Below are positions 703-51,806 of a stretch of DNA of 57,588 bases, one piece after another. Origin of the DNA: Prevotella sp. (GTDB taxonomy: Bacteria; Bacteroidota; Bacteroidia; Bacteroidales; Bacteroidaceae); assembly GCA_017447515.1 (NCBI GenBank), contig JAFSNG010000004.1, positions 1 through 57,588 of the forward strand, given 5' to 3'. The translations under genes were made by a program, and so were the position numbers. The notes beneath the pieces were generated by a model. The model did no database searches. It was not told the origin of the DNA and was given only the letters and a program-made list of their open reading frames with translations. Position 1 is the first letter of the stretch. The number at the start of each line of letters is the position of its first letter.

Positions 703-730
703 ATTAAACATTATACATTAAACATTAAAT
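703..730 (+). repeat. Heptamer array, unit ATTAAAC, 4 copies
   Basis: Four consecutive 7-base units (703-709, 710-716, 717-723, 724-730) match ATTAAAC with at most one change each. The array ends 9 bases before the mscL ATG. It is one of a series of different-word, same-period arrays across this window. Confidence 0.85.
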
Positions 731-739
731 TTTAGTATT

Positions 740-1159
740 ATGGGATTTATTAAAGAATTCAAGGAGTTTGCCATGAAGGGCAACGTGATGGACATGGCCG
801 TTGGTGTAATCATCGGTGGTGCTTTTGGTAAAATAGTGTCGAGCTTGGTCGACGATGTACTCATGCCACTCATTGGCAAGATGACGGGTGGTGTCAGCTT
901 TACCGACCTGTTTGTCAATCTGGGCGAGGGCGAATACGAGACGCTGGCTGCTGCCAAGGAGGCTGGTGCCGCCGTTCTAGCTTACGGACAGTTTATCCAG
1001 AATATCATTGACTTCCTTATTATCGCGTTCTGTATCTTCCTGATGATCAAGGCTATGAACAAGATGAAGAAGGAAGAGCCCGCTGCTCCCGAGGCTCCTG
1101 CCGGACCGACGCAGGAAGAGTTGTTGACTGAGATTCGCGACCTGCTGAAATCAAAGTAG
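740..1159 (+). CDS. mscL: Large-conductance mechanosensitive channel MscL
   Basis: Homopentameric inner-membrane channel that opens under membrane tension and releases osmolytes on hypo-osmotic shock. The 139-residue product has the family N-terminus ([20 protein letters not shown]), a first membrane helix at about residues 14-42, a periplasmic loop, a second helix at about 78-100 and a charged cytoplasmic C-terminal helix. Its length is typical (about 135-150). It follows the heptamer array at 703-730 and is closed by the perfect hairpin at 1211-1236, so it is probably monocistronic. Confidence 0.97.
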
Positions 1160-1210
1160 TTCAAGGATCGAAGGCGAAGTAAATCAAGAAAACGCCCTAT
1201 ATTATAATGT

Positions 1211-1245
1211 AAGGTGGCAAAAAAGTTTGCCACCTTATATTTTTT
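1211..1245 (+). terminator. Terminator of mscL, overlapping the sulP promoter
   Basis: An 11-bp perfect stem (1211-1221 with 1226-1236) has an AAAG loop and is followed by ATATTTTTT. The 3' arm contains the TTTG that serves as the -33 box of the next promoter. Confidence 0.85.
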
Positions 1246-1256
1246 GCATATCTTTG
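1226..1256 (+). promoter_or_regulatory. Promoter of the SulP transporter gene
   Basis: TTTG at 1226-1229, a spacer of exactly 19 bases, then TATCTTTG at 1249-1256 match the Bacteroidetes -33/-7 pattern. The start codon follows at 1282. The -33 box lies within the 3' arm of the mscL terminator. Confidence 0.8.
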
Positions 1257-1281
1257 CAGTCGAAAATCGTTTTTTAGGATA

Positions 1282-4103: not shown

Positions 4104-5567
4104 TTACTGCGTGATGATTTTGTGGACAGTACCCGACTCGTCGCGGACGATGGTAACGGGGCCGAAGCGGTAAAGCTGTTCGACGCTGGAGGCGAGCGTT
4201 GACGCGTTGACGGCCGTCGGGTCCATCATGACCTCAAACGAGGCCAGAGCGCCAGTGACAGCCATGTTGGTGATGGGTTTCGACATTAACTTGGTACCAT
4301 CAAGATTAGGGTTGTTCAGCGTGGCGGCCGGCGTTGACGTGTTGGTCAGTTCGTTGTTATCGCAGTAGGGATAGCCCCAACCGGCTTCGTCGCCTTTGTT
4401 GTTGGCGCGGAAAATAGTGTAGCGTTTGTTGCTGCCGGCATTGGGCCATTGCGTCACGCTGGTCCATACTGAGGGGTCGAAGTCGACGTGGAATATGACG
4501 ATGCCGCTGCCTGGTAACAACTCGTCCCAGCCGTGTTGCTGGCGATTTTCAATAATGTAGTATTCGTTTTTGCACCCATCGTTACATAACAAATAGGCCC
4601 GCCCCTCGTCCGACAGCGACGGCAGGTCTGTGACGGTCGCGGCCTCAGTGAGTTCCTCAGGTGTCAACCAGTCCATCAGCCATCGCTCGTGGGCGGAATA
4701 GCCACAGGGACGGAAGCCGTTGCCATTGTAGTTACCGTAATCCATGAGATCCCAGTAGCCGACAATCTTCGTACTGCCGTAGTAGAAATCGGGGAATCCG
4801 AAGCAGTGGCTGTACTCGTGGCATAACGTGCCGAAAGTACTCCATGTCTCGTGGCTAGCAAGTTCCTGTACAGCACAGTAACAGTCCACGAGATACGTGT
4901 GTCCCTCGCTGTCAGTAACGACACGGGGCTGGCAGTATTGCTGTGCCACGGGGTCAACATGTTCACTTAGCCACCACTGGTGTGGCCAAATGGCATCATA
5001 GCCCCCACCAAAACCGCCATAGCTACTGCCCTTGCCAGCATAGATGATAATCATTTGGTTGACGTAACCATCGCCGTTCCAGTCATAAAGACCCCACGCG
5101 ATATCTCGTTTCAGCAGGGAATCGACGATGTCCTCCACAAGGAATTGCGAGTTCTCGTCGTCCGTTACCGTGCTGCGATACTTCACAAGACTGTCAACGA
5201 CGACGTATTGCAGGTCGAAGACGGGGCGGAACGCGTCGTAGCTTTGCGCAACAAAATAGTCGCGAACGGAGCCGAAATAGGGTGCCTCGCTGAGATTCTC
5301 CGTATTGAAAATCATGTCCCAATCTTCCATGGTCTGCACCTCGTCGCCCACGAATGACCTGTCGGCAAAGGCGGCAAGCACCACCAACTGATGGAGGTCG
5401 CCCTTGTAGAAATCACCACCCGGCGTCCGTTCTGCAACAGCCCCGCGAGTAAATGCCCTCGGCGTTCCCCGTCGACAGCCCTGCCGCAAAACAGGTTCTT
5501 CTGCCATTGCCGTCAGCGTGACGAGCAACAGCAGAAGAATAGAGAATTTATAACGGTATTCCGACAT
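4104..5567 (-). CDS. Secreted M6-family metalloprotease
   Basis: Exported zinc protease of the immune-inhibitor-A (M6) type. From the ATG at 5567-5565 the product has 487 residues: a hydrophobic signal (YKFSILLLLLVTLTAMA), the M6 signature SVRDYFVAQSYDAF near residue 100, DWNGDG at 162-167 (possible metal site) and the zinc motif HEYSH at 250-254 followed by FGFPD. The frame stays open upstream into the fumarase gene, but only this start gives a signal peptide. The start codon and first seven codons lie inside the octamer array at 5550-5597, so the array supplies both the initiation region and the N-terminal residues. Probable role: extracellular or periplasmic proteolysis. Confidence 0.88.
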   Translation of the reverse strand: MSEYRYKFSILLLLLVTLTAMAEEPVLRQGCRRGTPRAFTRGAVAERTPGGDFYKGDLHQLVVLAAFADRSFVGDEVQTMEDWDMIFNTENLSEAPYFGSVRDYFVAQSYDAFRPVFDLQYVVVDSLVKYRSTVTDDENSQFLVEDIVDSLLKRDIAWGLYDWNGDGYVNQMIIIYAGKGSSYGGFGGGYDAIWPHQWWLSEHVDPVAQQYCQPRVVTDSEGHTYLVDCYCAVQELASHETWSTFGTLCHEYSHCFGFPDFYYGSTKIVGYWDLMDYGNYNGNGFRPCGYSAHERWLMDWLTPEELTEAATVTDLPSLSDEGRAYLLCNDGCKNEYYIIENRQQHGWDELLPGSGIVIFHVDFDPSVWTSVTQWPNAGSNKRYTIFRANNKGDEAGWGYPYCDNNELTNTSTPAATLNNPNLDGTKLMSKPITNMAVTGALASFEVMMDPTAVNASTLASSVEQLYRFGPVTIVRDESGTVHKIITQ

Positions 5568-5597
5568 ATCGGTATTTCGTAATAACGATATTCCGAC
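5550..5597 (+). repeat. Octamer array, skeleton ATNNCGNN, 6 copies
   Basis: Six successive 8-base units (5550, 5558, 5566, 5574, 5582, 5590) each have AT at positions 1-2 and CG at 5-6, while the other positions vary. The array fills the gap between fumarase and the M6 protease and runs over the protease start codon. The array at 18823-18854 has the same skeleton. Confidence 0.8.
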
Positions 5598-5598
5598 A

Positions 5599-7245
5599 TT
5601 ACTTCTTGGGACACCAGGGCTTGAGCGTCTTGAAGAAGTCATTACCCTTGTCATCGACGAGAATGAAGGCGGGGAAGTCCTCGACATCGATCTTCCACAC
5701 GGCTTCCATGCCCAGTTCGGGATACTCGACGCACTCGATGCTCTTGATACTGCTCTGGGAGAGAACGGCAGCCACACCGCCGATACTTCCGAGATAGAAA
5801 CCACCATACTTCTTACATGCCTCGGTGACCACGTCGCTACGGTTACCCTTGGCTATCATCACAAGCGAAGCACCGTTAGCTTGGAACTCATCGACGTAAG
5901 GATCCATACGATTGGCAGTAGTGGGTCCCATCGAGCCACAAGGATAGCCCTCTGGTGTCTTGGCAGGACCGGCATAGAGTACGGGATACTTTTTGAAGTA
6001 GTCAGGCAATCCCTCGCCTGCATCAAGACGGGCCTTCAGTTTGGCATGGGCGATATCACGAGCCACAATAATCGTACCCTTCAAGTTCACACGAGTAGAA
6101 ACTGGATACTTCGACAGTTCCTTGCGAACAGCGTCGATACCCCCGTTCAGGTCGATGGTAATGGTATTGGCACCCTCACCGGCCTTGGCATATTCAGCGG
6201 GAATGAGCTCAGATGGGTTCGAATCCATCTTCTCCAACCAAATACCGTCGGCATTGATCTTCGCCTTGATGTTTCTGTCGGCAGAGCAACTTACGCCCAT
6301 TCCAATCGGGCAGCTGGCACCGTGACGCGGCAGACGAATGACACGGATGTCGTGAGCCAAATACTTACCACCGAACTGGGCACCCAGTCCAATCTTGTGG
6401 GCCTCCTTGAGGAGTTTCTCCTCGAGGTCAACATCACGGAAGGCACGACCCGTTTCATCACCTGTTGTGGGCAGACCATCATAGAACTTGATAGAAGCCA
6501 ACTTCACGGTGAGCAGGTTCTTCTCAGCAGAAGTACCGCCAATCACAAAGGCAATGTGGTAAGGCGGACAAGCGGCTGTACCCAGCGACTTCATTTTTTC
6601 CACGAGGAACGGAATAAGCGTACCCTCATTCTGGATAGTAGCCTTGGTCATCGGATAGAAATAAGTTTTGTTGGCCGAGCCGCCACCCTTGGCCACCATC
6701 ACGAACTTATACTCAGCACCCTCAGTGGCCTCGATGTCAATCTGGGCTGGAAGATTGCAACGGGTATTCACCTCGTCGTACATATTCAGCGGTGCATTCT
6801 GCGAATAGCGCAGATTGTCCTGCGTGAAGGTATTGAAAACACCAAGGCTCAGCGCCTCTTCATCCTCAAAACCTGTCCAGATCTGCTGTCCCTTCTCACC
6901 GTGGATAATAGCAGTACCTGTGTCCTGACAGAACGGTAGGATGCCACGTGCAGCCACCTCGGCATTGCGCAGGAACTGCAGGGCGACGTACTTGTCGTTC
7001 TCTGATGCCTCGGGGTCATTGAGAATCCTTGCCACTTGTAGGTTATGTTCGCGACGCAACATGAACTCCACATCGTGGAAAGCCTGCTGTGCCAAGAGCG
7101 TCAAGGCCTCTTTTGAGACCTTTACGATCTGCTTTCCTTCAAACTCGGCGGTAGTCACGCCTTCCTTACTCAACAGACGATACTCTGTCTTGTCCTTGCC
7201 CACTTGAAACATCGGGGCGTACTTGAATTCAACTGTCTTTGCCAT
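5599..7245 (-). CDS. Class I (iron-sulfur) fumarate hydratase
   Basis: Interconverts fumarate and malate. In these anaerobes it works in the reductive branch that makes succinate. The 548-residue, single-chain form is the FumA/FumB type, with an oxygen-sensitive 4Fe-4S cluster. Conserved cysteine contexts are [10 protein letters not shown] (about residue 127), [15 protein letters not shown] and [13 protein letters not shown]. The C-terminal swivel domain includes [14 protein letters not shown]. The start at MAKTVEF is the only sensible one. It lies between two protease genes, separated from the M16 gene by a heptamer array. Confidence 0.95.
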
Positions 7246-7269: not shown

Positions 7270-7305
7270 ACTTTTACCCTTTTACTTTTTAACCTTTACC
7301 CTTTA
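7270..7305 (-). repeat. Heptamer array, sense unit TAAAGGG/TAAAAGK, 5 copies
   Basis: Read on the coding (minus) strand, five units of 7-8 bases each begin TAAA and end in purines plus T/G (boundaries 7299, 7292, 7285, 7277, 7270 on the plus strand; the 7277 unit has 8 bases). The array fills most of the 61-base gap between the M16 protease stop and the fumarase start. Confidence 0.75.
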
Positions 7306-7306
7306 A

Positions 7307-10234
7307 TCAGTATCCAAAGATTTCTTTTGTCGTCAGGCGCTTGATGGGGCCGAGCTGCTCCAAGGCCTTCACGTCGAGTTCCTTCTCATCACCGAGGATA
7401 ATGTAACGGTATTGCTTATTGGACATCATTTGTTTCTCGAAGTCAACGATGTCCTGAAGCTTCAGACCGGGCAGCGCGTTGTAAACCTTCTCGCTGATGT
7501 CGTAGTCGATACCCCTGCGCTTGGCAATGAGATAGTCGCTAATGACGCCGAATTTCGTGACGCGCTGACTGGCAAGCTGTTTCGTAACAGCATCCTTCGC
7601 AATCTGGAAGGCTGTCTCGCTGGCAGGCATCTCGTTCAGGATGACATTGAACTGACTGACAGCATCCACCATCTTGTCGTTCTGGGTGATGATGTAAGTC
7701 TGGTAGAACTCCTTTTCGCCCTTCTTGGACGGCGTGATGTAATAGGCTGCAGCACTGTAGGCCAGACCACGGGCCTCACGCATTTCCTGGAAGACGATAC
7801 CATTCATGCCGCCGCCGTAATACTCGTTGAAGAGGTCTACAACAGCCTCCTGCACAGGATTCCAGTCACGGCCCTCGTTGTGATACATGGCCAAATAGAT
7901 GTTCTTGGCATCATAGGGTGCAATCAGCACTTCGTTCGTCGTTGCCTGCTCACGGACATAAGGTTTACCCTTCGGCACGTCAGCCAGTTTCTTGGCAGTT
8001 TTATGGGTATTGCCTAACATTTTCGAGAGTTCGTCGGGAGTCAGCTTGCCATAATAAAGAACGGTATGCTTCATGTTCGACAGATTGGCCAACAAGTCCA
8101 GCAGTTGCTGGGGATTAGCCTGACGGAGCTGGTCGGCGGTCATCACGTCGCGATTGGAATTATGAGGACCATAAGTAGCGTAGTTTATCAGATAGCTGAA
8201 ATTGGTACGTTGGTCTTTCTTGGCGTCGTCGCGGGCTTTCAGCACCAAATCCACATACTGTTCGTACGATGCTTTGTCAGCCTTTGCATGATGCAACACT
8301 TCCTCCAACAGTTTCAGCGCCTTGGGCATCTGCGACTGAAGGCCGGAAAGCGAGATGTTCAGATTATCGGGATTGACGTTCACCGAATAACTGCAAGCCA
8401 TCTTGTAGAACTGCTGTTTGATCTGCGCTAAAGTGTATTTGTCAGTTCCCACATAGTCGAGATAGTCGGCAGCAATATCGTAACGGTTATCGTCCTGTTG
8501 CCCGAACTCATAGCGGAATACGAGATGGAAGAGATCGTTATCGGTATTCTGTTTATAGACAAGGGGCAAACCCTTATTCACAGCGCCGAGGGTAAGGTCC
8601 TTGCTATAATCAACGAACTTCGGCAGGATGGGCTCCACCTTGCTATTCTGGATGTCCTTCACAAACTGACTCATCAGATCGCGATTGGCAGGGATGGGCG
8701 TGATGGCAGGTTTGTCAATCTTCTTTTGAAGGGTATCAGTACCCTGCTTCTTAAAGACGGTGGCATAGCCGTCGGTGAAGAAACGGTTGGCAAAGGCCAC
8801 AATCTCCGCCTTGGTCATCTTCGCAATACGGTCCATACGATGCGTTTGCTGCTCCCATGTTGTACCGTCGATGAACGAATTCATCATCTGACGCACACGC
8901 CACATGTTATTGTCGAGGGAACGCTGACGCTGCAGTTCCATGTTGTTCACGATACTCGGTAATAGGTCATCAGAGAAACGTCCCTTCTTCAGATTCTCCA
9001 CCTCGCCCAACATCAAGGCACGAACTTCCTCCAACGACTGCTCGGGTTTCGGCATGCCGATGAGCAGGAAAGAGGAATAGTCCTGCAGATCCTGCAGATA
9101 GGCCTGCGCACTCTGAATCTTCATCTGCTGGTTCAGGTTGATATCAATCAGTCCAGCCTTGCCGTTCATAAGCATCGAACTGATGACGCTCAACGTATCG
9201 CACTGGGCATCGGAAGCCTTCTTGCCAAGCCAACCTACAATGACCTCCTCGGCCTGCTGTCCTATAACGGAGGTATCCTTCGGTGCCGTCAACGGCTTCT
9301 GCTCTGGGAATACTGGCTGCGGTACCGTTGCTAGCTGTTTTCCGCTGGCATCTGTTGCCGGTTTCCATAGTCCAAAGTAGCGGTCTATGATGACAATGAC
9401 CTTCTCGGGATCGAAATCGCCAGCCATACAGATAGCCACATTGTTAGGCACATACCACTTATTGAAATAATTCTTGATATTGGTTATCGAGGGGTTCTTC
9501 AAGTGCTCCTGCGTGCCGATAGTGGTCTGAGTGCCATAAGGGTGAGTGGGCGTCAGCAATTTGCCCAGCGCACTCCATACCTTGTCGCCGTCATCGGTCA
9601 GATAGAGGTTATACTCCTCGTAGACGGCCTCCAGTTCAGTATGGAAACCGCGAATCACCATGTGCTGGAAACGGTCACTCTGAATCTTTGCCCAGTTCTC
9701 AACCTCGTTCGACGGGATATCCTCCGTATAGCACGTCACATCGTTCGACGTGAAGGCGTTGGTACCTTCTGCACCGATGGCAGCCATCAGCTTGTCATAC
9801 TCATTGGGAATGAAGTACTGGGCAGCAATCTGCGACACGGAGTCAATCTCGTGATAGGCCTGCTTGCGCGCTTCGGGATCTGTCAGTTTGCGGTAGGCCT
9901 CGTAACGCTGCTCTATTTCGTCGAGCAATGGAGCCTCAGCAGTAGGATTGATGGTGCCAAACTGCTTGGTACCTTTAAACATCAGGTGCTCCAAATAGTG
10001 AGCCAGACCCGTTGTCTCTGCAGGGTCATTTTTCGAACCCGTCCGCACTGCAATATAGGTTTGAATCCTCGGTTTCTCTGCATTCACCGAGAGATACACT
10101 TTCAATCCGTTATCTAACGTGTAGATACGGGTTTTTGTCAAATCCCCATCTACTGTTTCATACTTGTAGTCCTTGGCCTGTGCGTTCATCCCGAGCGCAA
10201 TGAGGCATCCTGTCAGAATGAGTTTGAGTTTCAT
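7307..10234 (-). CDS. Exported M16 (insulinase/pitrilysin) zinc metalloprotease
   Basis: Periplasmic or surface peptidase of the M16 family. The 975 residues begin with a signal peptide (LILTGCLIALGMNAQA). The N-terminal M16 unit carries the inverted zinc motif HYLEH (residues 79-83, HxxEH). Inactive-type M16 repeats follow, including the closing half with GGGMNGIVFQEMREARGLAY. The length fits two-domain pitrilysin-type enzymes. It is 35 bases downstream of the DUF4954 gene and 61 bases upstream of fumarase, both on the same strand. It probably degrades imported or misfolded peptides; the substrate is unknown. Confidence 0.92.
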   Translation of the reverse strand: MKLKLILTGCLIALGMNAQAKDYKYETVDGDLTKTRIYTLDNGLKVYLSVNAEKPRIQTYIAVRTGSKNDPAETTGLAHYLEHLMFKGTKQFGTINPTAEAPLLDEIEQRYEAYRKLTDPEARKQAYHEIDSVSQIAAQYFIPNEYDKLMAAIGAEGTNAFTSNDVTCYTEDIPSNEVENWAKIQSDRFQHMVIRGFHTELEAVYEEYNLYLTDDGDKVWSALGKLLTPTHPYGTQTTIGTQEHLKNPSITNIKNYFNKWYVPNNVAICMAGDFDPEKVIVIIDRYFGLWKPATDASGKQLATVPQPVFPEQKPLTAPKDTSVIGQQAEEVIVGWLGKKASDAQCDTLSVISSMLMNGKAGLIDINLNQQMKIQSAQAYLQDLQDYSSFLLIGMPKPEQSLEEVRALMLGEVENLKKGRFSDDLLPSIVNNMELQRQRSLDNNMWRVRQMMNSFIDGTTWEQQTHRMDRIAKMTKAEIVAFANRFFTDGYATVFKKQGTDTLQKKIDKPAITPIPANRDLMSQFVKDIQNSKVEPILPKFVDYSKDLTLGAVNKGLPLVYKQNTDNDLFHLVFRYEFGQQDDNRYDIAADYLDYVGTDKYTLAQIKQQFYKMACSYSVNVNPDNLNISLSGLQSQMPKALKLLEEVLHHAKADKASYEQYVDLVLKARDDAKKDQRTNFSYLINYATYGPHNSNRDVMTADQLRQANPQQLLDLLANLSNMKHTVLYYGKLTPDELSKMLGNTHKTAKKLADVPKGKPYVREQATTNEVLIAPYDAKNIYLAMYHNEGRDWNPVQEAVVDLFNEYYGGGMNGIVFQEMREARGLAYSAAAYYITPSKKGEKEFYQTYIITQNDKMVDAVSQFNVILNEMPASETAFQIAKDAVTKQLASQRVTKFGVISDYLIAKRRGIDYDISEKVYNALPGLKLQDIVDFEKQMMSNKQYRYIILGDEKELDVKALEQLGPIKRLTTKEIFGY

Positions 10235-12129: not shown

Positions 12130-13484
12130 TATTGTATTGGTTCAAAATTATCTTCAATATTATAGAAGAAATCGTTATAAGGATATTTCTGCACGTGCAA
12201 CTCGCGTACCTTTTTATATAGTACCTCGCGCAACTCGTCAATATTCTCTTTGTTCTTCGCTGAAATAAACAGCGGTTCAACAACATACCTCTCACCGCTC
12301 ACCTCTGAGCTCTCACCTCTGGTTTTCGCCATCCAAGTCTTCTTTAACTCCTCCAGTGAGATGTTTTCTCGCGTCGGCTCTGTCAGGTCGTCCTCGTCCT
12401 GCGGCGTCCATGTATAGGCGTCTATCTTGTTGAACACCAGCATCGACGGTTTTTCCGCACAGCCTAAGTCGGCCAACGTCTTTTCCACCACGTTGATTTG
12501 TTCCTCGAAGTCGGGGTGTGAGATATCCACCACGTGCACCAAAAGGTCAGCCTCGCGCACCTCGTCCAGCGTCGACTTAAACGAGTCTACAAGGTCGGTG
12601 GGCAGCTTGCGGATAAATCCTACGGTGTCGGCCAGCAAAAACGGCAGATTGTCTATTACCATCTTCCTCACCGTCGTGTCCAGCGTCGCAAACAGCTTGT
12701 TCTCGGCAAACACGTCGCTCTTCGCCAGCAGGTTCATCATCGTCGATTTACCCACGTTCGTATAGCCCACCAATGCTACGCGAATCAGTCGTCCGCGATT
12801 CTTCCTTTGCGTGGTCTTCTGCTTGTCAATTTCCACTAGACGCTCCTTCAATAGCGAGATACGCTGACGGATGATGCGCTGGTCCATCTCCAACTGCGTC
12901 TCACCAGGGCCGCGAAGACCTACGGAACCCTTGCCGCCACCAGAACCGGAACCGCCGCCCTGTCGTTCCAAGTGTGTCCATAGACGTTGCAGACGGGGCA
13001 ACATATAACGGTACTGCGCCAGCTCCACCTGCGTCTTAGCCTCGGCAGTCTGAGCGCGCATGGCAAAGATGTCGAGAATCAACGACGTTCTGTCCAGTAT
13101 CTTCACCTTTAGTTCATTCTCAATATTACGAATCTGCTTGGCGCTCAGCTCGTCGTCGAAGATAACCATTCCCACGGGCTGTGGTGCCGTACTGCCATCC
13201 TCGGTTTCAGGCTGTCCGGCATCCATCCAGTCGTAATAGGCATCCTCCTGCTGTTTGATATATTGCTTAATTTCTTCGAGCTTACCCTTGCCGACATACG
13301 TCACCTGACTGGGTCCCTGCACCTTCTGCGTAAAGCGCTTCACGGTGACAGCCCCAGCGGTATCGGCCAGAAATTCCAGCTCGTCCAGATATTCTTTCGT
13401 CTTAGCCTCGTCCTGCTGTTGCGTAATAAGTCCCACCAGCACGGCAGTCTCAGCCTTCGCCTCCGAAATGACAAATTCCTTCAT
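12129..13484 (-). CDS. hflX: GTPase HflX
   Basis: Ribosome-associated GTPase that splits stalled or hibernating 70S ribosomes. The 451 residues contain the HflX N-terminal domain, the glycine-rich linker (GGGSGSGGGKGSVGLRGPGE) and a G domain with GYTNVGKS (G1), DTVGF (G3) and NKID (G4). Residues 387-401 are encoded by a heptamer array (12283-12324, sense word GGTGAGA), inserting a low-complexity stretch late in the G domain just before VVEPLFISAKN. The start ATG overlaps the stop of the DUF4923 gene (ATGA), and the 3' end overlaps the DUF4954 start, so the three are one operon. Confidence 0.95.
   Translation of the reverse strand: MKEFVISEAKAETAVLVGLITQQQDEAKTKEYLDELEFLADTAGAVTVKRFTQKVQGPSQVTYVGKGKLEEIKQYIKQQEDAYYDWMDAGQPETEDGSTAPQPVGMVIFDDELSAKQIRNIENELKVKILDRTSLILDIFAMRAQTAEAKTQVELAQYRYMLPRLQRLWTHLERQGGGSGSGGGKGSVGLRGPGETQLEMDQRIIRQRISLLKERLVEIDKQKTTQRKNRGRLIRVALVGYTNVGKSTMMNLLAKSDVFAENKLFATLDTTVRKMVIDNLPFLLADTVGFIRKLPTDLVDSFKSTLDEVREADLLVHVVDISHPDFEEQINVVEKTLADLGCAEKPSMLVFNKIDAYTWTPQDEDDLTEPTRENISLEELKKTWMAKTRGESSEVSGERYVVEPLFISAKNKENIDELREVLYKKVRELHVQKYPYNDFFYNIEDNFEPIQ
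12283..12324 (-). repeat. Heptamer array inside hflX, sense unit GGTGAGA, about 6 copies
   Basis: Plus-strand units starting at 12283, 12290, 12297, 12304, 12311 and 12318 are variants of TCTCACC. The first and last are the weakest. Six units make 42 bases, 14 codons, which keeps the hflX frame. Confidence 0.75.
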
Positions 13485-15375: not shown

Positions 15376-15436
15376 AGAAAGCACGGATTTTCGGATTATT
15401 CGACGTGATTAAGTCATCTACGTGTTAACAAATCAT

Positions 15437-15471
15437 AAAGTTCAAACTTCAAAGTTCAAAGTTCAAAGAAA
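15437..15471 (+). repeat. Heptamer array, unit AAAGTTC, 4-5 copies
   Basis: Units start at 15437, 15444, 15451 and 15458, with a decayed fifth at 15465. The second has one change (AAACTTC). The array lies just upstream of the -7 element of the glycogen operon, where the -33 box would be expected. Confidence 0.85.
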
Positions 15472-15477: not shown

Positions 15478-15485
15478 TAACTTTG
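15478..15485 (+). promoter_or_regulatory. -7 element of the glycogen operon
   Basis: TAACTTTG matches TAnnTTTG, 57 bases before the debranching enzyme ATG. The region 19-20 bases upstream is occupied by the AAAGTTC array and shows no TTTG. Confidence 0.5.
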
Positions 15486-40071: not shown

Positions 40072-40101
40072 TGAGCCCATCGTTTGGTGGGCTCATTTAT
40101 T
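40072..40101 (+). terminator. Terminator of the hemicellulose locus
   Basis: TGAGCCCA at 40072-40079 pairs with TGGGCTCA at 40088-40095 over an 8-base loop, followed by TTTATT. Another inverted repeat (ATATCAC with GTGATAT, about 40010-40034) lies between the stop codon and this hairpin. Confidence 0.75.
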
Positions 40102-40194
40102 CGTACCTTTTTTCTTTGGAGAAGGCACTTTCGCTCGAAAATGAAAAGAAAAACGAGTTTTCCTTTTGCATTTTGCTCGCTTATTCGTACCTTT
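40097..40194 (+). repeat. 14-base direct repeat around the HPr-kinase-like promoter
   Basis: TTATTCGTACCTTT occurs exactly at 40097-40110 and 40181-40194. The second copy carries the active-looking -7 box (TACCTTTG); the first reads TACCTTTT. This suggests a duplicated or tandem promoter. Confidence 0.7.
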
Positions 40195-40195
40195 G
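40165..40195 (+). promoter_or_regulatory. Promoter of the HPr-kinase-like/peptidase/ABC cassette
   Basis: TTTG at 40165-40168, exactly 19 bases, then TACCTTTG at 40188-40195, 19 bases before the ATG at 40215. A full match to the Bacteroidetes pattern. Confidence 0.8.
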
Positions 40196-40214
40196 CACGA
40201 GTTGGAGAATTAAG

Positions 40215-41066
40215 ATGAACGAGACCAGATATTACAAGGTGGCTGGACATGTGTTCGGCGTGACAGGCGAGGCAGAGTGTTTCGCGCTGATGGCTAATTA
40301 CGAACCGTTTGCGACGCAAGGGGATGGCTCTTTTGTGGCGATGCTGACACTGGAAAGGAAAGCATCGTCCTCCGATGTGGCTTTCTCGGAAGAACTCAGG
40401 CAGGAAGACGAGGGTCAGGAGATTATCTGCGGACGGACAGCTGACGGGGAACATGTGTTTGAGTTCCGGTGGCTGAACGAGACGGCAGGGTGGCTGGTGT
40501 GCTCGGAGGACTATCGTGAGGGAAGGCTCGTCATGACGGGGAAGTATGAGAAAATGGCCATTGACAACGCGCTGATGGTGCTGTATGCGCTGGCAACGGC
40601 GGACAAAGGGACGGTGCTGTTTCATGCGGCGGTGGTCAGCTATGAGGGACGTGGGTATATGTTCCTGGGACGAAGTGGTACGGGCAAGAGTACACACGCC
40701 AGGCTGTGGCTGAAATATATCGAAGGGACGGCGCTGGTGAACGACGATAATCCCGTGGTGAGAGACGGGGTGGTGTATGGTTCGCCGTGGAGTGGCAAGA
40801 CACCCTGTTATCGCAACGTGAGTTATCCGTTGGGTGCTATCGTTTTGCTCAGCCAGGCACCATACAATGAGATACGGCGTCTGATTGGTATCCATGCGTA
40901 TGTGGCTCTGATAGAAAGCATCAGCGGCAAACGCTGGGATGAGCGTATCGCTGACGGACTGCACCAGACGGAGGATGCGCTGGTCGCGCAGGTGCCTGTG
41001 TGGCATCTGGAATGTCTGCCCGACGAGGAGGCCGCAAGACTTTGTCAGTTAAATATTAAGAGGTAA
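40215..41066 (+). CDS. HPr-kinase-like P-loop protein
   Basis: Resembles the C-terminal kinase part of HPr kinase, as found beside peptide-maturation genes, rather than true HprK of carbon regulation. The 283 residues have an N-terminal beta-rich half of unknown role, a P-loop GRSGTGKST at 152-160 preceded by FHAAVVSYEGRGYMFLG, then NDDNPVV at about 176 and GSPWSGKTP. The ATG at 40215 follows a perfect promoter; the open frame upstream crosses the terminator and was not used. It is 33 bases before the S26-like gene. Function is inferred from context. Confidence 0.75.
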   Translation: MNETRYYKVAGHVFGVTGEAECFALMANYEPFATQGDGSFVAMLTLERKASSSDVAFSEELRQEDEGQEIICGRTADGEHVFEFRWLNETAGWLVCSEDYREGRLVMTGKYEKMAIDNALMVLYALATADKGTVLFHAAVVSYEGRGYMFLGRSGTGKSTHARLWLKYIEGTALVNDDNPVVRDGVVYGSPWSGKTPCYRNVSYPLGAIVLLSQAPYNEIRRLIGIHAYVALIESISGKRWDERIADGLHQTEDALVAQVPVWHLECLPDEEAARLCQLNIKR

Positions 41067-41102
41067 GAATTAAGAGGTGAGAGGTAAGAATTAAGAGTTA
41101 TG
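41061..41102 (+). repeat. Heptamer array, unit AGGTAAG/AATTAAG, 6 copies
   Basis: Units start at 41061, 41068, 41075, 41082, 41089 and 41096, all of the form ANNTNAG except the last, which ends in the ATG of the next gene (41100-41102). It covers the stop of the previous gene, the whole gap and the start codon. Confidence 0.85.
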
Positions 41103-41528: not shown

Positions 41529-41544
41529 AGGTTAGAGAATAGTT
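41524..41544 (+). repeat. Weak heptamer array, unit GTTAGAG, 2-3 copies
   Basis: Units at 41524 (TTTAGAG), 41531 (GTTAGAG) and, decayed, 41538. It overlaps the stop of the S26-like gene and precedes the ABC exporter start. Confidence 0.4.
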
Positions 41545-41566
41545 GGATAAAAGCAGGGAAAAGGAA

Positions 41567-43147
41567 ATGAATTATGTAGTCTGGCTGTGGCGAAACTCCG
41601 TCGGCATCCGTTGGAATACGGCTGTCCGCATTGTTACTGGTGTTGGGCAGGTGGCGCTTGGCTTGCTGATGATATGGATCAGCAAAAGGTTCATTGACGA
41701 GACTATCCGCACAGGATCGGCTGACGATGTGCTGACGATGGTACTATGGTTGGTGCTGACCGTCGTGGGCGGTGTGATTCTAAGACAGGTAGGCTTCTGG
41801 CTGACGACCTCTGCGAGTGTCAGGCAGATGAACGCCCTGCGTCTGCGTATCTTCAGCAGCCTGTTTCGCAGACAACTTTATAATGGCGAGGAGCTCCATT
41901 CGGGTGATGTGACCTCACGACTGGCAAAGGATATTGATCAAGTGAGCAATGTGTGTACTGACACGTTGCCTCAAATGGTCATCACGATGATACAACTCTG
42001 TGGCGCATTTTTGTTGATGCAGTGGTTTGATGCACGGTTGGCATGGGCATTGTTGTTGCTGACACCTCTGGCTATCGTCTTCGGCAAACTCGTGGCCAGG
42101 CGTCTCCGTCAGATGACCCTCGACATCCGACAGGACGAAAGCCGCATTCAGATGCAGGTGCAGGAGGGTATGGAGCATAATGCCGTATTGCGCTCGTTAG
42201 GTTCAGAACAATGGGTGACTGGCAGGCTTGACACCATGCAGCAACGGCTTCACGGGAATATGATGCGACGCATGAGGTTTACCGTCGTCACGCGACTTAT
42301 CATGGGTTGTGCCTTTGGACTCGGCTATTTGCTGGCATTCGTTTGGGGCGGCATCGGACTGCGCAATGGTACGATTACCTTTGGTGTGATGACCTCCTTC
42401 CTGCAACTCGTCGGTATGATACAACACCCCATTCTCCAATTATTGAACATGGTACCTAGCGTGATACACGCCACCGCAAGTATTGACAGGCTCAGTGAAT
42501 TGGAACAGACAACGAAAGCCACCACTGTTGCACGCAATGGTAATACAAATACTCAAGGCATCAGCTTCAAAGATGTGACTTTCCGCTATGCCAAGGGTGA
42601 CAGGGTGATACTTTCGCATTTTACGTACGACTTCTCCCCAGGTTCTAAGACCGCCATCATGGGTGAAACGGGTGTTGGTAAAACAACGCTGTTCCGGCTG
42701 ATTCTCGGTTTCATCGAGCCGACAGAGGGCAAGGTGGAAGTTGGCGGTGAATTGTGTTTCGTGCCCCAGGGAAATACCCTGATGAGCGGCACCATCCGCT
42801 ATAACCTGCAACTGGCTAAACCCGATGCTACTGAAGACGAAATGCGACAGGTACTGCATACCGCCTGTGCTGATTTTGTCTTTAACCTGTCTGATGGCCT
42901 CGATACCGAACTAGGAGAGCGAGCCAGCGGACTCAGCGAAGGACAGGCCCAGCGTATTGCCATTGCTCGCGGGCTGCTCCATAGCGGTGACATCCTCCTG
43001 TTAGATGAAATCAGCAGTTCGTTGGACGAACCCACTGAGCAGGAGTTATATCACCGTCTCTTTACAAACTATCCCTCTAAGACTATGATATTCATTACTC
43101 ATCGTTCCACCGTCAGTGAGTTATGTGACAAGGTGATCAGATTGTAA
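41567..43147 (+). CDS. ABC transporter, fused membrane and ATPase domains (exporter type)
   Basis: Half-transporter likely to act as a homodimer in the inner membrane. The 526 residues have an N-terminal region of about six membrane spans (about 20-300) and an ATPase domain with Walker A GETGVGKTT (from residue 366), signature LSEGQAQR and Walker B ILLLDEISSS. There is no C39 peptidase domain. The ATG at 41567, preceded by GGGAAAAGGAA, was preferred to a TTG at 41543. It is third in the cassette with the HPr-kinase-like and S26-like genes and converges on alaS with 18 bases between. Substrate is unknown; a peptide is plausible from context. Confidence 0.88.
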   Translation: MNYVVWLWRNSVGIRWNTAVRIVTGVGQVALGLLMIWISKRFIDETIRTGSADDVLTMVLWLVLTVVGGVILRQVGFWLTTSASVRQMNALRLRIFSSLFRRQLYNGEELHSGDVTSRLAKDIDQVSNVCTDTLPQMVITMIQLCGAFLLMQWFDARLAWALLLLTPLAIVFGKLVARRLRQMTLDIRQDESRIQMQVQEGMEHNAVLRSLGSEQWVTGRLDTMQQRLHGNMMRRMRFTVVTRLIMGCAFGLGYLLAFVWGGIGLRNGTITFGVMTSFLQLVGMIQHPILQLLNMVPSVIHATASIDRLSELEQTTKATTVARNGNTNTQGISFKDVTFRYAKGDRVILSHFTYDFSPGSKTAIMGETGVGKTTLFRLILGFIEPTEGKVEVGGELCFVPQGNTLMSGTIRYNLQLAKPDATEDEMRQVLHTACADFVFNLSDGLDTELGERASGLSEGQAQRIAIARGLLHSGDILLLDEISSSLDEPTEQELYHRLFTNYPSKTMIFITHRSTVSELCDKVIRL

Positions 43148-43165: not shown

Positions 43166-45835
43166 TTACAGCTTGGCCAGTTCGAGGACTTTGTCGACTG
43201 CGGCACTAAGACCATCGACGCTCTTACCACCAGCTTGGGCGAAATGGGGCTGACCGCCACCGCCACCCTGGATGAGTTTGGCAGCTTCGCGCACCATCTG
43301 GCCTGCGTTGAGGTTGTGGTCGCTGACCATGTCGTCGCTCATCATGATAGAGAGCTGGGGCTTGTCGCTGTCGTGAGAACCAATGACGCAGAGCAGTGAG
43401 CCATTGACAGCGGCACGAATCTTGAAGGCAAGGTCCTTGGCAGCAGCAGGTTTCATGGGCAACACCGACGTGATGACGGTGACGCCATTGACGGTGCGCG
43501 CCTTCTCCAGCAGACGCTTGGCAACCTGCTCGATGGCCTGAGCCTGGAAACCTTCAATCTCCTTCTTCATCGAGTCGTGTTCCTCGATATATTTCTGGAT
43601 AACGCCCTGGAGGTCCTTGGCGTTGTTGAAGAACGACTTGATGGTCTTCAACATATTCTCCATATCGTAGATCAGATTCTCGCAGTCGCGACCCGTGGTG
43701 GCCTCGATACGGCGGATACCAGCGGCAACGCTGCTCTCAGAGAGAATCTTGAAGAAACCGATGCGACCTGTTGATGAGGCGTGGATACCACCACAGAACT
43801 CGCACGACGGTCCGAAGCGAACCACACGAACCTTGTCGCCATATTTTTCGCCGAAGAGGGCGATGGCACCGAGCTTCTTGGCCTCGTCGAAGGGAACGTC
43901 GCGATGTTCGTCGATGTGGATGTCCTGACGAATCATGTCGTTCACCATGCGCTCTACCTCGCGCAGCTGCTCGTCGCTGACCTTCTCGAAGTGAGAGAAG
44001 TCGAAGCGCAGTGTGTCGGGCGAAACGAACGAACCCTTCTGCTCTACGTGGTCGCCCAGCACCTGCTTCAGGGCATAGTCCAGCAGGTGGGTAGCGGTAT
44101 GATTGGCTGCCGAGGCGTTGCGCTTGTCGGTATCGACGCAGGCCATGAATTCGGCCGTGGGATCCTTCGGCAGTTGCTTGACGATATGTACGCTCTGGTT
44201 GTTCTCGCGCTTGGTATCGATGATCTCGACGGTCTCGTTTTCGTTGACGAGCACACCGCAATCGCCAACCTGACCGCCCATCTCGCCATAGAATGGTGTA
44301 GCGTCGAGGACAAGCTCGTAGAACTCGTTCTTCTTCTGGGTGACCTTGCGGTAACGCAGGATGTGACAGTTGTATTCGGTGTAGTCGTAGCCAACGAACT
44401 GCTGTTCACCAGCCTGAAGCTCCGTCCAGTCGCTGTTTTCGACGGCAGCGGCATTGCGGGCACGCTCCTTCTGCTTCTGCATTTCGACGTTGAACTGCTC
44501 CTCGTCAACCGTAAAGCCGTTCTCACGACAGATGAGTTCCGTCAGGTCGAGGGGGAAACCGTAGGTGTCGAACAGGCGGAAAGCCTGAACGCCATCCAAC
44601 TGGTTCTTGCTCTGAGCCTTGAGGTCTGCCATAGCCTTATCGAGCAGGGAGATACCCTTGTCGAGGGTGCGCAGGAAGCTATCCTCTTCCTCCTTAATCA
44701 CCTTGGTAATCAATTGCTGCTGAGCCTTCAGCTCGGGGAAGGCATCACCCATTTCATGAACAAGGGTGGGAACGAGCTTATAGAGGAATCCGTCCTTCTG
44801 GCCGAGGAACGTGTAGGCATAGCGTACGGCACGACGCAGGATACGACGGATGACGTAACCAGCCTTGGCGTTGCTGGGCAATTGACCGTCAGCAATGGAG
44901 AACGAGACGGCACGCAGGTGGTCGGCGCAGACGCGCATAGCGACGTTGATGTCTTCTTGGTTTTTGGCTATTGGCTCTTGGCTGTTAGCTTCTTCCTCGA
45001 AGGTGGTATACTTCAGTCCCGTGATGTCCTGCTCGGCCTTGATGATGGGCTGGAACACGTCGGTGTCGTAGTTCGAGTGCTTGCCTTGCATCATGCGAAC
45101 GAGACGCTCGAATCCCATACCGGTATCGATGACGTTCATCGACAGCTTTTCGAGTGAGCCGTCAGCTTTGCGGTTGAACTGCATGAACACGAGGTTCCAA
45201 ATCTCGATGACCTGTGGGTCGTCCTGATTGACGAGCTCACGGCCAGTCTTGCCTGAGGCAGCTTTCTGCTCAGGGGTACGAGAGTCAACGTGAATCTCAG
45301 AGCAAGGACCACAGGGACCCGTATCGCCCATTTCCCAGAAATTGTCGTGCTTGTTACCATTGATGATATGATCCTCGGGAACGTGCTTGGCCCAATATTT
45401 GGCGGCTTCGTCGTCGCGAGGAATGTTTTCTTCGGGCGAACCCTCGAAAACAGTGACGTAGAGGTCAGCGGGATTCAGCTTCAGGACATCCACCAGATAC
45501 TCCCAAGCCATGTCGATGGCGCCCTCCTTGAAGTAGTCGCCAAACGACCAGTTGCCGAGCATCTCGAACATGGTGTGGTGATAGGTGTCGTGACCGACCT
45601 CTTCCAAGTCGTTGTGCTTGCCGCTGACGCGCAGACATTTCTGTGTATCCGCTCGACGGCGCGGTTCAGGGTCGCGCGTACCTAATATTATATCTTTCCA
45701 CTGGTTCATGCCCGCGTTGGTAAACATCAGCGTGGGGTCGTCCTTGATAACCATCGGTGCAGAAGGCACGATGGCGTGTTGCTTTGACTCGAAAAACTTT
45801 TTGAATGAGTCGCGAATCTCGTTGGCTGTCATCAT
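43166..45835 (-). CDS. alaS: Alanyl-tRNA synthetase
   Basis: Charges tRNA-Ala with alanine. The 889 residues cover the class II catalytic core ([12 protein letters not shown], then [22 protein letters not shown]), the editing domain with zinc-binding CEFCGGIH, and the oligomerisation C-Ala domain with the glycine-rich [14 protein letters not shown]. Residues 281-294 (between LKYTTFE and DINVAMR) are encoded by a heptamer array and have no counterpart I know of in other AlaRS. The start is MMTANEI at 45835 or the second Met at 45832. tRNA-Lys lies upstream on the same strand. Confidence 0.96.
44954..44995 (-). repeat. Heptamer array inside alaS, sense unit CCAAGAG, about 6 copies
   Basis: Plus-strand units start at 44954, 44961, 44968, 44975, 44982 and 44989; the consensus is CTNTTGG. 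The last is the weakest. Forty-two bases equal 14 codons, so the frame is kept. Confidence 0.8.
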
Positions 45836-48389: not shown

Positions 48390-48456
48390 CACGTTGATTG
48401 CTGCATGTTCGCGTGCGCGCATTATTAAATAATGGTGAATCATTAAAAAATTAAAT

Positions 48457-51400
48457 ATGTTTATGGGAAAAAAGATTACGCTGATTTTGTTCGGTCTGTT
48501 CCTCTATGTAGGTCTGACCTTTGCTCAGAACAAGATTACGGGTACTGTCTTTGAAGACAATGGTGAGCCGTGTATTGGTGCCACTGTGATGATCCAGGGA
48601 ACCAAACAAGGTACAAAGACCGATTTGGATGGTAACTTTACCATCGCCGTACCTGCTGGCAAGAAGCTTGTGATAAGCTATGTAGGTATGGTTACAGAGA
48701 CAGTGAAAGCCCAAGATGGAATGAAAATTACTCTTCGCCCCGATGCGCAAACACTGGGCGAGGTTGTTGCCGTGGGTATGATGAAGCAGGATAAGCGCCT
48801 GTTTACAGGTGCTACCACGAAAGTGGATGCCGAGAAAGCCAAGCTGGACGGTATTGCTGATATCTCCCGCTCACTGGAAGGCCGTGCTGCCGGTGTGAGT
48901 GTGCAGAACGTGTCTGGTACCTTTGGTACTGCACCGAAGATCCGTGTGCGTGGTGCTACGTCTATCTATGGTAGTTCGAAGCCCCTGTGGGTGGTTGACG
49001 GTGTGATTATGGAAGATGTGACGGAGGTTGATGCCGATGCTTTGTCGTCAGGTGATGCCGCCACGCTGATTTCCAGTGCCATTGCCGGTTTGAATGCTGA
49101 CGATATCGAGTCGTTCCAGATTCTGAAGGACGGTTCCGCCACCTCTATCTATGGTGCCCGTGCTATGGCTGGTGTGATTGTCGTTACCACCAAGCGCGGT
49201 CATGCGGGTTCTTCGAAGATTAGCTATACCGGTGAGTACACCATGCGTCTGCGCCCCAGCTATTCGCAGTTCAATATCATGAACTCGCAGGAGCAGATGT
49301 CTGTCTACCGTGAAATGCAGAACAGCGGTTTCCTGTCGTTCATGAGCAGCTATCGCGCCAGCTCAAGCGGTGTGTTTGGTAAGATGTATCACCTCATCAA
49401 CGACTACGATCCTGCCACTGGTACTTTCAGGTTGGCTAATACGCAGGAGGCCATGAACGACTACCTGCGTGGGGCTGAGTACTGTAACACCAACTGGTTT
49501 GATGAGTTGTTCTCGAACTCTATCCAGCACAACCACTCCATCTCCATGAGTTCTGGTACCGACAAGGCTCAGTATTACACCTCGTTCTCTATCATGAGCG
49601 ACCCGGGATGGTATGAGCGTGGCAAGGTGTCGCGTTACACCGCCAACATCAACGCCAACTACAACCTGAACAAGCGGGTGTCGTTGAACCTGATTGGTAA
49701 TGCCAGCTATCGTAAGCAGGAGGCTCCTGGTACGACAGGTCAGGAAACCGACGTTGTGTCTGGTGAGGTAAAGCGCGACTTCGATATCAACCCCTATTCG
49801 TATGCGCTGAATACCTCGCGTACGCTGGATCCCGACGAGTTCTACATCCGTAACAACGCTCCGTTCAATATCCACCACGAGTTGGCCACCAACTACATGC
49901 AGCTGGATGTTGTCGACATGAAGTTCCAGGGCGAGCTGAAGTACAAGCCCGTGCGTACCGTCGAGTTGAGCGCCATCGGTGCTTACAAGTATTCGACCAC
50001 CACACAGCAGCACTTCATCAAGGAGACTAGTAACCAGGCTATGGCCTTCCGTATGATGGAGGATGCCACCATGCGTGACTCCAACCCCTGGCTGTATACC
50101 GACCCCGATGTCATCAATTCACTGCCTGTCTCCGTACTGCCCGAGGGAGGTTTCCATCGTGAGACCGTCTATAAGATGAACTCTTGGGACTTCCGTGCTA
50201 CGGCAAGCTACAACGACGTGTTCAACGAAGACCATATCGTCAATGCCTATGGTGGTATGGAAATCAACAGCATCGACCGTGTCGCTACGTCGAACACCAA
50301 GGTTGGTGTGCTCTACGACATGGGTCAGTTAGGCAATTATGACTACAAATACTTCAAGCAGGCCAGTGAGGAGAACAATATGTACTACTCGCTGAACAAC
50401 GGTTACAGCCGCGAGGTATCGTTCTTCGGTACGGCTACCTATTCTTGGAAGCGCCGTTATATCATCAACGGTACTGTCCGCTATGAGGGTAGTAACCGTC
50501 TGGGACGTTCTACCAGTGCTCGCTGGCTGCCCACATGGAATGTTTCTGGTGCATGGAATGCTCACGAGGAGCCTTGGTTCTATCGCACCTTCAAGAATAC
50601 GTTGACGCACGCCACCCTGAAGGCCAGCTACTCGCTGACGGGTGACAAGCCTGCCGTCACCAACTCCATGGTGATTATCCGCGCCTATAACCCCTGGCGC
50701 CCCTATTCTAACGACAAGGAGTCTGGACTGGAAATCGGAGACTTCGCCAATCCTGAGTTGACCTACGAGAAGAAGCATGAGTTCAACGTCGGACTGAGCC
50801 TCGGTTTCCTTAACAACCGCATCAACTTCGACTTCGACTGGTACACCCGTAACAACTACGACCTGATTGGTCCGAAGCGTACCACAGGTGTCGGTGGTGA
50901 AATCGTGAAGTATGCCAACGTAGCCTCGATGAAGTCGCACGGTGAGGAGTTCACCCTCTCAACGCGTAACATCATCACCAAGGACTTTGAATGGACCACC
51001 GACTTCATCTATTCTCACACACACTGTGAGGTGACCGACTTCGATTCACGCAACCGCGTCATCGACCTCATCACAGGTAACGGCTTCACCGAGAAGGGCT
51101 ATCCCTACCGTTCGTTGTTCTCGATGGATTTCCAGGGACTGAACGAGTATGGTCTGCCCACGTTCATCAACGAGAATGGCGAAAAGACCGTGAGCGACAT
51201 CGATTTCCAGTCCTATGTCACCGATTATCTGAAGTATGAAGGTCCTACCGATCCTACCGTCACTGGTTCGCTCGGCAACGTGTTCCGTTACAAGAACTGG
51301 CACCTGAACGTCTTCGTTACCTATGCTTTCGGTAATGTGGTACGTCTCGACCCCTGCTTCGCCGTTTCTTATTCTGACCTGACCGCTATGCCGCGTGAGT

Positions 51401-51768
51401 TTGCCAACCGCTGGGTTGTTCCCGGTGATGAGGCTCGCACCACGATTCCCGCTATTGCCGACCTGCGCTCAATTCAGAACGATTCGCGCTTAAGCTATGC
51501 CTACAATGCCTACAACTACTCTACCGACCGTATTGCCAAGGGTGACTTCATCCGCATGAAGGAAATCTCGTTGGCTTACGACTTCCCCACCAACTGGGTA
51601 GGTCACCTCGGTCTGAGCAATATGAGCATGAAGCTGCAGGCTACCAACCTCTTCCTGATCTATGCCGACAAGAAGTTGAACGGTCAGGATCCTGAATTCT
51701 TCAACTCTGGTGGTGTGGCAGTGCCTATGGCCCGTCAGTTTACGTTCACCCTGCGCTTGGGAATATAA
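48457..51768 (+). CDS. SusC/RagA family TonB-dependent outer-membrane receptor
   Basis: Outer-membrane beta-barrel that imports a SusD-bound ligand with TonB energy. The 1103 residues have a signal peptide (ITLILFGLFLYVGLTFA), a carboxypeptidase-regulatory-like domain (about 26-105, with GATVMIQGTKQGTKTDLDGN), a plug domain (about 115-235, with KIRVRGATSIYGSSKPLWVV and SATSIYGARAMAGVI) and a C-terminal barrel ending in FTFTLRLGI. The start is MFMGKK at 48457 or the second Met at 48463. It heads a four- or five-gene operon. Ligand unknown; the partner metallohydrolase suggests a peptide or glycopeptide rather than a simple glycan. Confidence 0.95.
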   Translation: MFMGKKITLILFGLFLYVGLTFAQNKITGTVFEDNGEPCIGATVMIQGTKQGTKTDLDGNFTIAVPAGKKLVISYVGMVTETVKAQDGMKITLRPDAQTLGEVVAVGMMKQDKRLFTGATTKVDAEKAKLDGIADISRSLEGRAAGVSVQNVSGTFGTAPKIRVRGATSIYGSSKPLWVVDGVIMEDVTEVDADALSSGDAATLISSAIAGLNADDIESFQILKDGSATSIYGARAMAGVIVVTTKRGHAGSSKISYTGEYTMRLRPSYSQFNIMNSQEQMSVYREMQNSGFLSFMSSYRASSSGVFGKMYHLINDYDPATGTFRLANTQEAMNDYLRGAEYCNTNWFDELFSNSIQHNHSISMSSGTDKAQYYTSFSIMSDPGWYERGKVSRYTANINANYNLNKRVSLNLIGNASYRKQEAPGTTGQETDVVSGEVKRDFDINPYSYALNTSRTLDPDEFYIRNNAPFNIHHELATNYMQLDVVDMKFQGELKYKPVRTVELSAIGAYKYSTTTQQHFIKETSNQAMAFRMMEDATMRDSNPWLYTDPDVINSLPVSVLPEGGFHRETVYKMNSWDFRATASYNDVFNEDHIVNAYGGMEINSIDRVATSNTKVGVLYDMGQLGNYDYKYFKQASEENNMYYSLNNGYSREVSFFGTATYSWKRRYIINGTVRYEGSNRLGRSTSARWLPTWNVSGAWNAHEEPWFYRTFKNTLTHATLKASYSLTGDKPAVTNSMVIIRAYNPWRPYSNDKESGLEIGDFANPELTYEKKHEFNVGLSLGFLNNRINFDFDWYTRNNYDLIGPKRTTGVGGEIVKYANVASMKSHGEEFTLSTRNIITKDFEWTTDFIYSHTHCEVTDFDSRNRVIDLITGNGFTEKGYPYRSLFSMDFQGLNEYGLPTFINENGEKTVSDIDFQSYVTDYLKYEGPTDPTVTGSLGNVFRYKNWHLNVFVTYAFGNVVRLDPCFAVSYSDLTAMPREFANRWVVPGDEARTTIPAIADLRSIQNDSRLSYAYNAYNYSTDRIAKGDFIRMKEISLAYDFPTNWVGHLGLSNMSMKLQATNLFLIYADKKLNGQDPEFFNSGGVAVPMARQFTFTLRLGI

Positions 51769-51771
51769 TTC

Positions 51772-51806
51772 ATTGACAGTTGACAATAGATAATTGATAA
51801 TTATGA
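51772..51806 (+). repeat. Heptamer array, unit ATTGACA/ATTGATA, 5 copies
   Basis: Units start at 51772, 51779, 51786, 51793 and 51800. The last unit contains the SusD start codon at 51803. It fills the SusC-SusD gap. Confidence 0.8.

Follow-up and report, generated by a model that had tools for sequence, protein, structure and literature searches.

The 57,588 bp analysed here (positions 1 to 57,588 of contig JAFSNG010000004.1, assembly GCA_017447515.1; hereafter the window) come from a rumen Prevotella genome labelled G000, in which the window is G000:C24. Scattered through its genes and gaps are short tandem arrays built in steps of seven bases from differing words, and these heptamer arrays are our subject. 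The assembly is metagenome-derived, 1.92 Mb (1,921,349 bp) in size and 61.1% complete; on the evidence of alanyl-tRNA synthetase (AlaRS), a rumen Prevotella metagenome-assembled genome (91%) and Xylanibacter ruminicola (89%) are the closest named relatives. All claimed sites were scored under a single scheme (match +1, mismatch -2 at offset p), and the window sites were compared with four close relatives, G293, G249, G258 and G395. One genome per species was compared, and the differences in unit number given below are between species. The array sites of the window are as follows.

703-729, plus strand: ATTAAAC array of 3.9 units, 10 nt before the mscL start (740); score 14.
4196-4212, unstranded: 8-base repeat GCGTTGAC, two units, inside the open reading frame (ORF) 4104-5807.
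7271-7306, minus strand: weak GGTAAAG array (sense strand of both genes), filling the gap between ORFs 7307-10234 and 5599-7245; score 8.
12287-12321, minus strand: array of degenerate AGGTGAG units within a GTPase gene (GTP-bdg_N/M) that we take to be HflX; score 9.
13497-13546, minus strand: weak and degenerate array resembling AGGAGCA, close to the 3' end of its DUF4923 gene; score 5.
15437-15468, plus strand: AAAGTTC array upstream of a glycogen debranching enzyme gene; score 19.
18819-18852, plus strand: period-8 array CGTAATAA, between an ORF ending at 18810 and one starting at 18863.
30725-30795, plus strand: GGTCAAA array lying in frame within a DUF6057 gene; score 16.
33637-33659, plus strand: CAGCCCT array in a GH97 gene; score 13.
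41057-41100, plus strand: AAGAGGTAAGAATT-type array immediately before a start at 41100; score 10.
44957-44990, minus strand: AGCCAAN array in a loop of the alanyl-tRNA synthetase gene; score 12.
51773-51802, plus strand: ATTGACA / AATTGAT array filling the gap from ORF 48457-51768 to a SusD-like gene; score 11.

Tandem Repeats Finder recovers the claimed arrays. The first-pass annotation of this DNA had listed ten loci, of which eight score at least 9; those placed at 7270 (score 8) and 13492 (score 5) are weak, and the region of the latter fits period 14 better (13513-13546). An Rfam search of the window returned one tRNA only.

Period 7 exceeds chance in the window and beyond it. Nine period-7 segments in the window score at least 9, whereas 200 dinucleotide shuffles averaged 0.275 and never exceeded 3; the same loose count gives seven segments each at periods 9 and 14. 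At a cut-off score of at least 12, the window and 20 further stretches (381,752 of the 1,921,349 bp) hold 33 arrays of period 7, the commonest period, and 7 and 6 arrays of periods 8 and 9. Three shuffles of this sample contained no period-7 array, and none was returned by identical code from 200 kb of E. coli MG1655. Period 7 also leads in all four sets of relatives taken around AlaRS, that is, in all Bacteroidales groups sampled, at 58.7 arrays per Mb in Prevotella/Segatella (AlaRS 70-82% identical) and at its lowest, 20.9 per Mb, in Bacteroidales with AlaRS identity of no more than 63%. The excess over shuffled sequence (33 against 0) and its recurrence in relatives bear out the annotation's proposal of a process that generates seven-base steps; it is at work across this genome and its kin.

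The excess is not confined to gaps. A gene-context sample of 1,850,622 bp from six genomes, with genes called by a simple home-made caller, contains 157 period-7 arrays: 89 between genes, 65 inside genes and 3 at edges. Per-base density is higher between genes than inside; period 7 is the top period in both compartments, and the 65 intragenic arrays occur despite seven not being a multiple of three. Synonymous-codon shuffles of the genes gave 0 and 1 such arrays, and dinucleotide shuffles of the gaps likewise 0 and 1. Period 8 is represented by 24 arrays between genes and 5 inside, and period 9 by 16 and 18, with synonymous shuffles giving 8-9 inside. A second excess, at period 22, comprises 28 arrays of unrelated words between genes in 1.85 Mb (for example L025:752-826 and L008:1620-1664); as a guess, they may mark regulator sites that are paired at a distance of two helical turns.

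The modal array has four units (80 of 179 arrays, with three units in 38 and five in 21), in a distribution whose short end is trimmed by the detection threshold. Intragenic arrays are spread along the length of genes and avoid stops: the word contains a stop codon in 14 of 65 cases when read on the coding strand and in 41 of 65 when read on the opposite one (Fisher p 2.8e-6). Arrays between codirectional genes tend to occupy the interval between the stop of the upstream gene and the start of the downstream one. In these the purine-rich strand is the sense strand in 44 of 61 cases (p 0.0007; six genomes), so that the annotation's remark that the words are purine-rich on the sense strand stands here; inside genes it fails (28 of 65), and as a general rule it is rejected. 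The motif TAnnTTTG lies within 30 nt of 15 of the 89 intergenic arrays, compared with 6.3% of random intergenic windows. A search for a flank motif shared by arrays in general returned mostly one orthologous site. At three unrelated G000 promoters, one of them that of a tRNA gene, GTTAACAAATCAT stands directly before heptamer arrays of different words (window 15424-15436; L018:10410; L022, minus strand); in the window the array at 15437 is flanked by it on one side and by a Bacteroidetes-type box, TAACTTTG (15478-15485), on the other.

The words themselves are many and related. The 157 arrays use 57 distinct words, and a word is common to 13.8% of array pairs (at most one mismatch, any rotation, both strands); random genomic 7-mers reach 2.0% and letter-shuffled words 3.6%. 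The best alignment of the distinct words yields a weak consensus, R-N-T-K-A-R-R, of 4.6 bits (genomic 7-mers 3.3-3.8, shuffled words 3.9-4.2). The claim that every locus has its own, independent word is therefore rejected as stated; the companion claim, that a shared period without a shared sequence speaks against copying of one element, survives to the extent that no single word was copied throughout. Three patterns recur across 30 genomes of the genus, AGCCAAN in 18, CTAGTN4 in 25 and ARGTRAG in 28, with counts that vary widely among genomes (chi-square 842, 58 degrees of freedom, inflated by overlapping matches). Separately, we observed period-9 arrays in which each unit keeps the core CTAGT and has a spacer that varies (L034:5436-5476 and L033:10862-10915, and in genome G205), with up to 85 pattern matches in one genome; such varying spacers are at odds with plain slippage.

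Orthologous sites provide a view of gain, loss and replacement. We made 119 comparisons with both flanks matched, drawn from all sampled genomes and not independent of one another: the relative had no array in 53, the same word in 38, a word with two mismatches in 6, one with at least three mismatches in 15, and another period in 7. Species carry different words at twelve sites with conserved flanks:

In the window: 4196, 5550, 7271, 12287 and 18819.
Elsewhere: L014/L198; L205/L272; L187/L251/L274; the L288 junction; the AlaRS loop.
Elsewhere, with words judged by eye: L008/L295 and L020/L188/L292.

Array-less orthologs differ in length by a multiple of three in 21 of 24 coding comparisons and in 11 of 29 intergenic ones, and the coding ones match the array word at only 7-9 of 14 positions. 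Among intergenic orthologs with the same word, length is unchanged in 16 of 26 comparisons, while some differ by 14 or 21 nt.

The window sites illustrate each outcome. The arrays at 703 and 30725 are absent from all four relatives and present only in G000. At 4196 the four relatives carry heptamer arrays of 28-52 bp in three different words, in one register and of equal length. The 7271 site has ATGTTTC units in G293 and none in the other three relatives. Three words and two empty versions occur at 12287, with AGCCAAN in G293, the period-8 CTCCYTGT in G395 and nothing in G249 and G258. At 15437 the array has equal length in G293 (decayed), G258 and G395 and is missing from G249. The place of the period-8 array at 18819 is taken by AAAGTTG/T heptamers in three relatives and by an AGTGAAG inverted pair in G249, and at 33637 period 7 persists at equal length in all four relatives, with drifting words. 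The weak site at 13497 gave no ortholog pair among these relatives.

Among 110 loci examined, the window included, the AlaRS loop measures 33 nt in 64 and holds an array at a score of at least 8 in 11, six of them heptamers and five of period 9 (mostly CTAGT-based). The window and three relatives share the heptamer AGCCAAN; L158 has a TCAAAYC word and L049 has ACACCCA. The L049 AlaRS gene also carries a second insertion, with GAGGGGG/CCCCCTC palindromes. The L288 junction (on contig 9 of G000) is an ATGA overlap of two genes in G293 and G395; G249 has a stop-(GTTGAAA)2-ATG arrangement and, at a second place, TAATG; in G332 and G258 AATTGAY arrays separate the stop from the start; and G000 has AGTGAAG-type units plus AATTTGCTACCGC, with the downstream reading frame predicted to start inside the array.

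One subset of the arrays is a discrete dispersed element, consisting of two to four heptamers followed by a 13-bp tail. The tail, AATTTGCT[AT]CCGC, has 10 matches in 3,617,265 bp outside the loci that were fetched by the pattern itself, and all 10 are preceded by heptamer-like units in one phase (in one case only two units, in another degenerate ones). The unit words before the tail differ (AGTGAAG, AGTGAAA, AAATGAG). With one mismatch allowed, the tail occurs in all 8 genomes tried, with 1 to 19 matches. With two mismatches and GAAG added, it is matched in 285 of 398 genomes of the genus, in a search whose controls give up to 3 matches per strand, so that little weight attaches to low counts; the richest genomes reach 115 (G213), 110 (G296), 102 (G216), 99 (G290) and 93 (G041). 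Eight short regions were fetched, picked partly for nearby inverted hits; in four the tail lies in both arms of an inverted pair, and in four the DNA is predicted to fold as a hairpin. L313 and L315 form near-perfect hairpins whose arms measure about 40 bp; in L312, and likewise in L313, one irregular unit recurs in mirror image in the two arms. Over all data, 31 pairs of period-7 arrays lie within 200 bp of each other, of which 16 are inverted and matched, 4 direct and 11 other; random array pairs match at about 5% in either orientation.

For the reading we favour, the scales stand about level: the arrays would be short dispersed heptamer blocks of Prevotella-group genomes, gained at tolerant sites, drifting, and lost or overwritten from a clade-shared vocabulary whose words spread by short template copying. 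Blocks of about four units would be gained where extra DNA is tolerated, in stop-to-start gaps, upstream of promoter boxes, or in frame in tolerant stretches of protein, where the words retained are mostly stop-free on the coding strand. Once established, blocks would mostly hold their length and drift by substitution, until lost or overwritten by another word from the clade-wide vocabulary. Words from arrays elsewhere may be copied into a new site over a short template (template switching in repair or replication) and would afterwards grow by local slippage to about four units; inverted pairs may be made by foldback copying. Parts of this picture are shown by the data: the period of seven, the modal size, gain and word replacement site by site, the avoidance of stops, the matched inverted pairs and the dispersal of one discrete family with the 13-bp tail. 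Copying as the means of dispersal is demonstrated for the tailed subset alone; for the other arrays we infer transfer of short words and local growth. Possible, if rather improbable, is a variant in which the heptamer-armed hairpins form a class of miniature mobile DNA in their own right, with two arms of about four heptamers, a short fixed tail and a variable spacer, and in which most solo arrays are half-elements of such hairpins or seeds that they left behind. Foldback copying would keep the arms identical, so that the word would be free to change without loss of period or hairpin; a single cause would then cover the reuse of sites, the turnover of words and the constant step of seven.

Several results weigh against the reading of gained and overwritten blocks. 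Among untailed arrays, shared unit order of at least 21 nt was observed 69 times, against a mean of 103 in unit-shuffled controls, and of at least 32 nt 8 times, against a mean of 5.1 and a maximum of 8; long blocks shared among unrelated untailed arrays thus show no excess, and long-block copying is unsupported for most arrays. Word sharing, in samples of 51-459 kb per genome, is 0.150 within genomes and 0.136 between them, inside the permutation range; the idea of strong genome 'dialects' is weakened accordingly, de novo words being barely more alike within than between genomes. In array-less relatives the array word stands at a mean percentile of 0.705 among other words (31 arrays), a figure raised in part because some 'absent' cases are decayed arrays; it leans mildly towards local similarity and leaves room for local seeds. 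Arrays of equal length in five species (33637) or four (15437) represent stability, not turnover. Matches to Y1_Tnp were found in 5 of 8 genomes and not in G000, G395 or G205, all of them drafts; none of 6 Y1 loci carries the tail and one has a heptamer array. These hits tie no transposase to the tail, and no mobilising enzyme emerged.

The annotation's own idea, which our results partly support, was that a replicative or repair polymerase slips in a seven-base register on whatever short seed is present; selection would then pick the words that survive. This we regard as a serious though tentative possibility. The seven-base step is real, and it is held across unlike words in all Bacteroidales groups sampled; the 14 or 21 nt differences between some same-word intergenic orthologs, the percentile of 0.705 and the lack of common unit order among unrelated untailed arrays also suit it. 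Expansion of a local seed is at best weakly indicated by that percentile. Against it, array-less coding orthologs agree with the word at no more than 7-9 of 14 positions, and 16 of 26 same-word intergenic comparisons show no change of length. Different words at one site, together with words common to several sites, need an extra cause, and slippage does not make the tailed hairpin family. Selection for regulatory or translational sites, read by proteins or ribosomes near start codons and promoters as in MacGregor's proposal for TAACTGA, could account for codirectional intergenic arrays lying near the downstream start with a purine-rich sense strand (44 of 61), for TAnnTTTG beside 15 of 89 arrays and for the array at 15437, which holds its place and length in three relatives. 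It is unlikely for the class: 65 of 157 arrays lie inside genes, sites are empty or hold another word in close relatives, and a TA-rich motif beside AT-rich arrays is a loose test.

A telomerase-like route, in which an RNA-templated, repeat-adding reverse transcriptase supplies short repeats that are captured at DNA breaks with template words as array words, would account for ready-made blocks, for several periods (7, 8, 9) and for the missing local seed. In one system DRT10 is described as producing tandem-repeat cDNA of period 9 nt, and in others the motif length varies (PMC12632851). The accessible portion of that account does not mention Bacteroidetes or chromosomal capture, and many words per genome would require many templates; this route is highly improbable. 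Chance, base composition or assembly artefact is barely credible. The genome is admittedly an incomplete metagenome assembly (61.1%), but shuffles give 0-1 arrays and E. coli none, which rejects chance or composition for the array class as a whole, and the arrays preserve reading frames and recur in independently assembled relatives.

An excess of heptanucleotide repeats in bacteria has been published, and so has its attribution to polymerase slippage in steps of 7 nt; the accessible portions of PMC4679880 and PMC4692102 credit the excess and the polymerase-contact slippage idea to Mrazek 2007. Those repeats resemble ours in their unit of seven, excess over chance, many words and variation among species; ours differ, as far as these portions describe the earlier ones, in lying inside genes in 65 of 157 cases, in word replacement at conserved sites and in their hairpin elements. 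Nor are the Bacteroidetes without a published account, as the annotation had supposed: TAACTGA and other heptamer repeats occur in five of them (MacGregor 2015, PMC4679880). As far as the accessible text tells, TAACTGA repeats of Beggiatoaceae, cyanobacteria and these five Bacteroidetes are likewise heptamers, often just before start codons and, in Bacteroidetes, beside other heptamers, and the flanking genes in relatives sometimes lack repeats (PMC4679880). TAACTGA is not among our 57 words, and here many words coexist and replace one another. The GGGAATC / GGGGA(C/T)T heptamers of Xanthomonas and Nostoc are similarly numerous (about 180 arrays per Xanthomonas genome) and vary in length and sequence, and most of them lie between the same genes in two species, according to the part of PMC4692102 available. 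As presented there they form one G-rich, quadruplex-capable family mainly outside genes, whereas the Prevotella words are A/G-rich, mixed and largely not of the G-run type, and the arrays lie between genes in 89 cases, inside in 65 and at edges in 3. REPINs, or REP doublets, share with the tailed subset short inverted pairs around a spacer, predicted hairpins, singlets and doublets, and strong copy-number differences between genomes, in the accessible text of PMC3116915 and PMC3733652. The inverted-pair hairpin form occurs here in a subset, with 16 inverted period-7 pairs overall and the tail in both arms in four of the eight fetched regions; the arms of the tailed elements are heptamer arrays with a 13-bp end rather than palindromic REP units, and no RAYT link was found at the 6 Y1 loci. 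On inspection, the tail on its other strand, GCGGTAGCAAATT, contains GTAG without an adjoining palindrome, and the body of the element is the heptamer array.

What is new is the observation that orthologous sites with conserved flanks are often array-less or occupied by another word. We found no description of word replacement at conserved sites or of heptamer-armed Prevotella hairpins in the literature searched, which left out most subscription papers. Should the reading of gained and overwritten blocks be correct, a repeat class usually blamed on polymerase stutter would be largely gained, overwritable filler, which adds in-frame peptides to genes, as in the alanyl-tRNA synthetase loop, separates overlapping operon genes and supplies start codons. 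The long-open question of why seven would then become testable, because sites, words and empty versions can be aligned species by species.

Other features were observed in passing. Two G000 loci (L010:19132-19200 and L013:15218-15292) have in common a 21-bp repeat containing TAAAACTGCG. In the window, a dispersed repeat of about 107 bp (40091-40197) ends in a promoter-like box, TTCGTACCTTTGCAC; it has no Rfam match and many matches in G258, G293 and G249. Finally, the C-terminal 78 residues encoded at 41543-43147 match the PADLOC model mad3 (E 2.1e-21).

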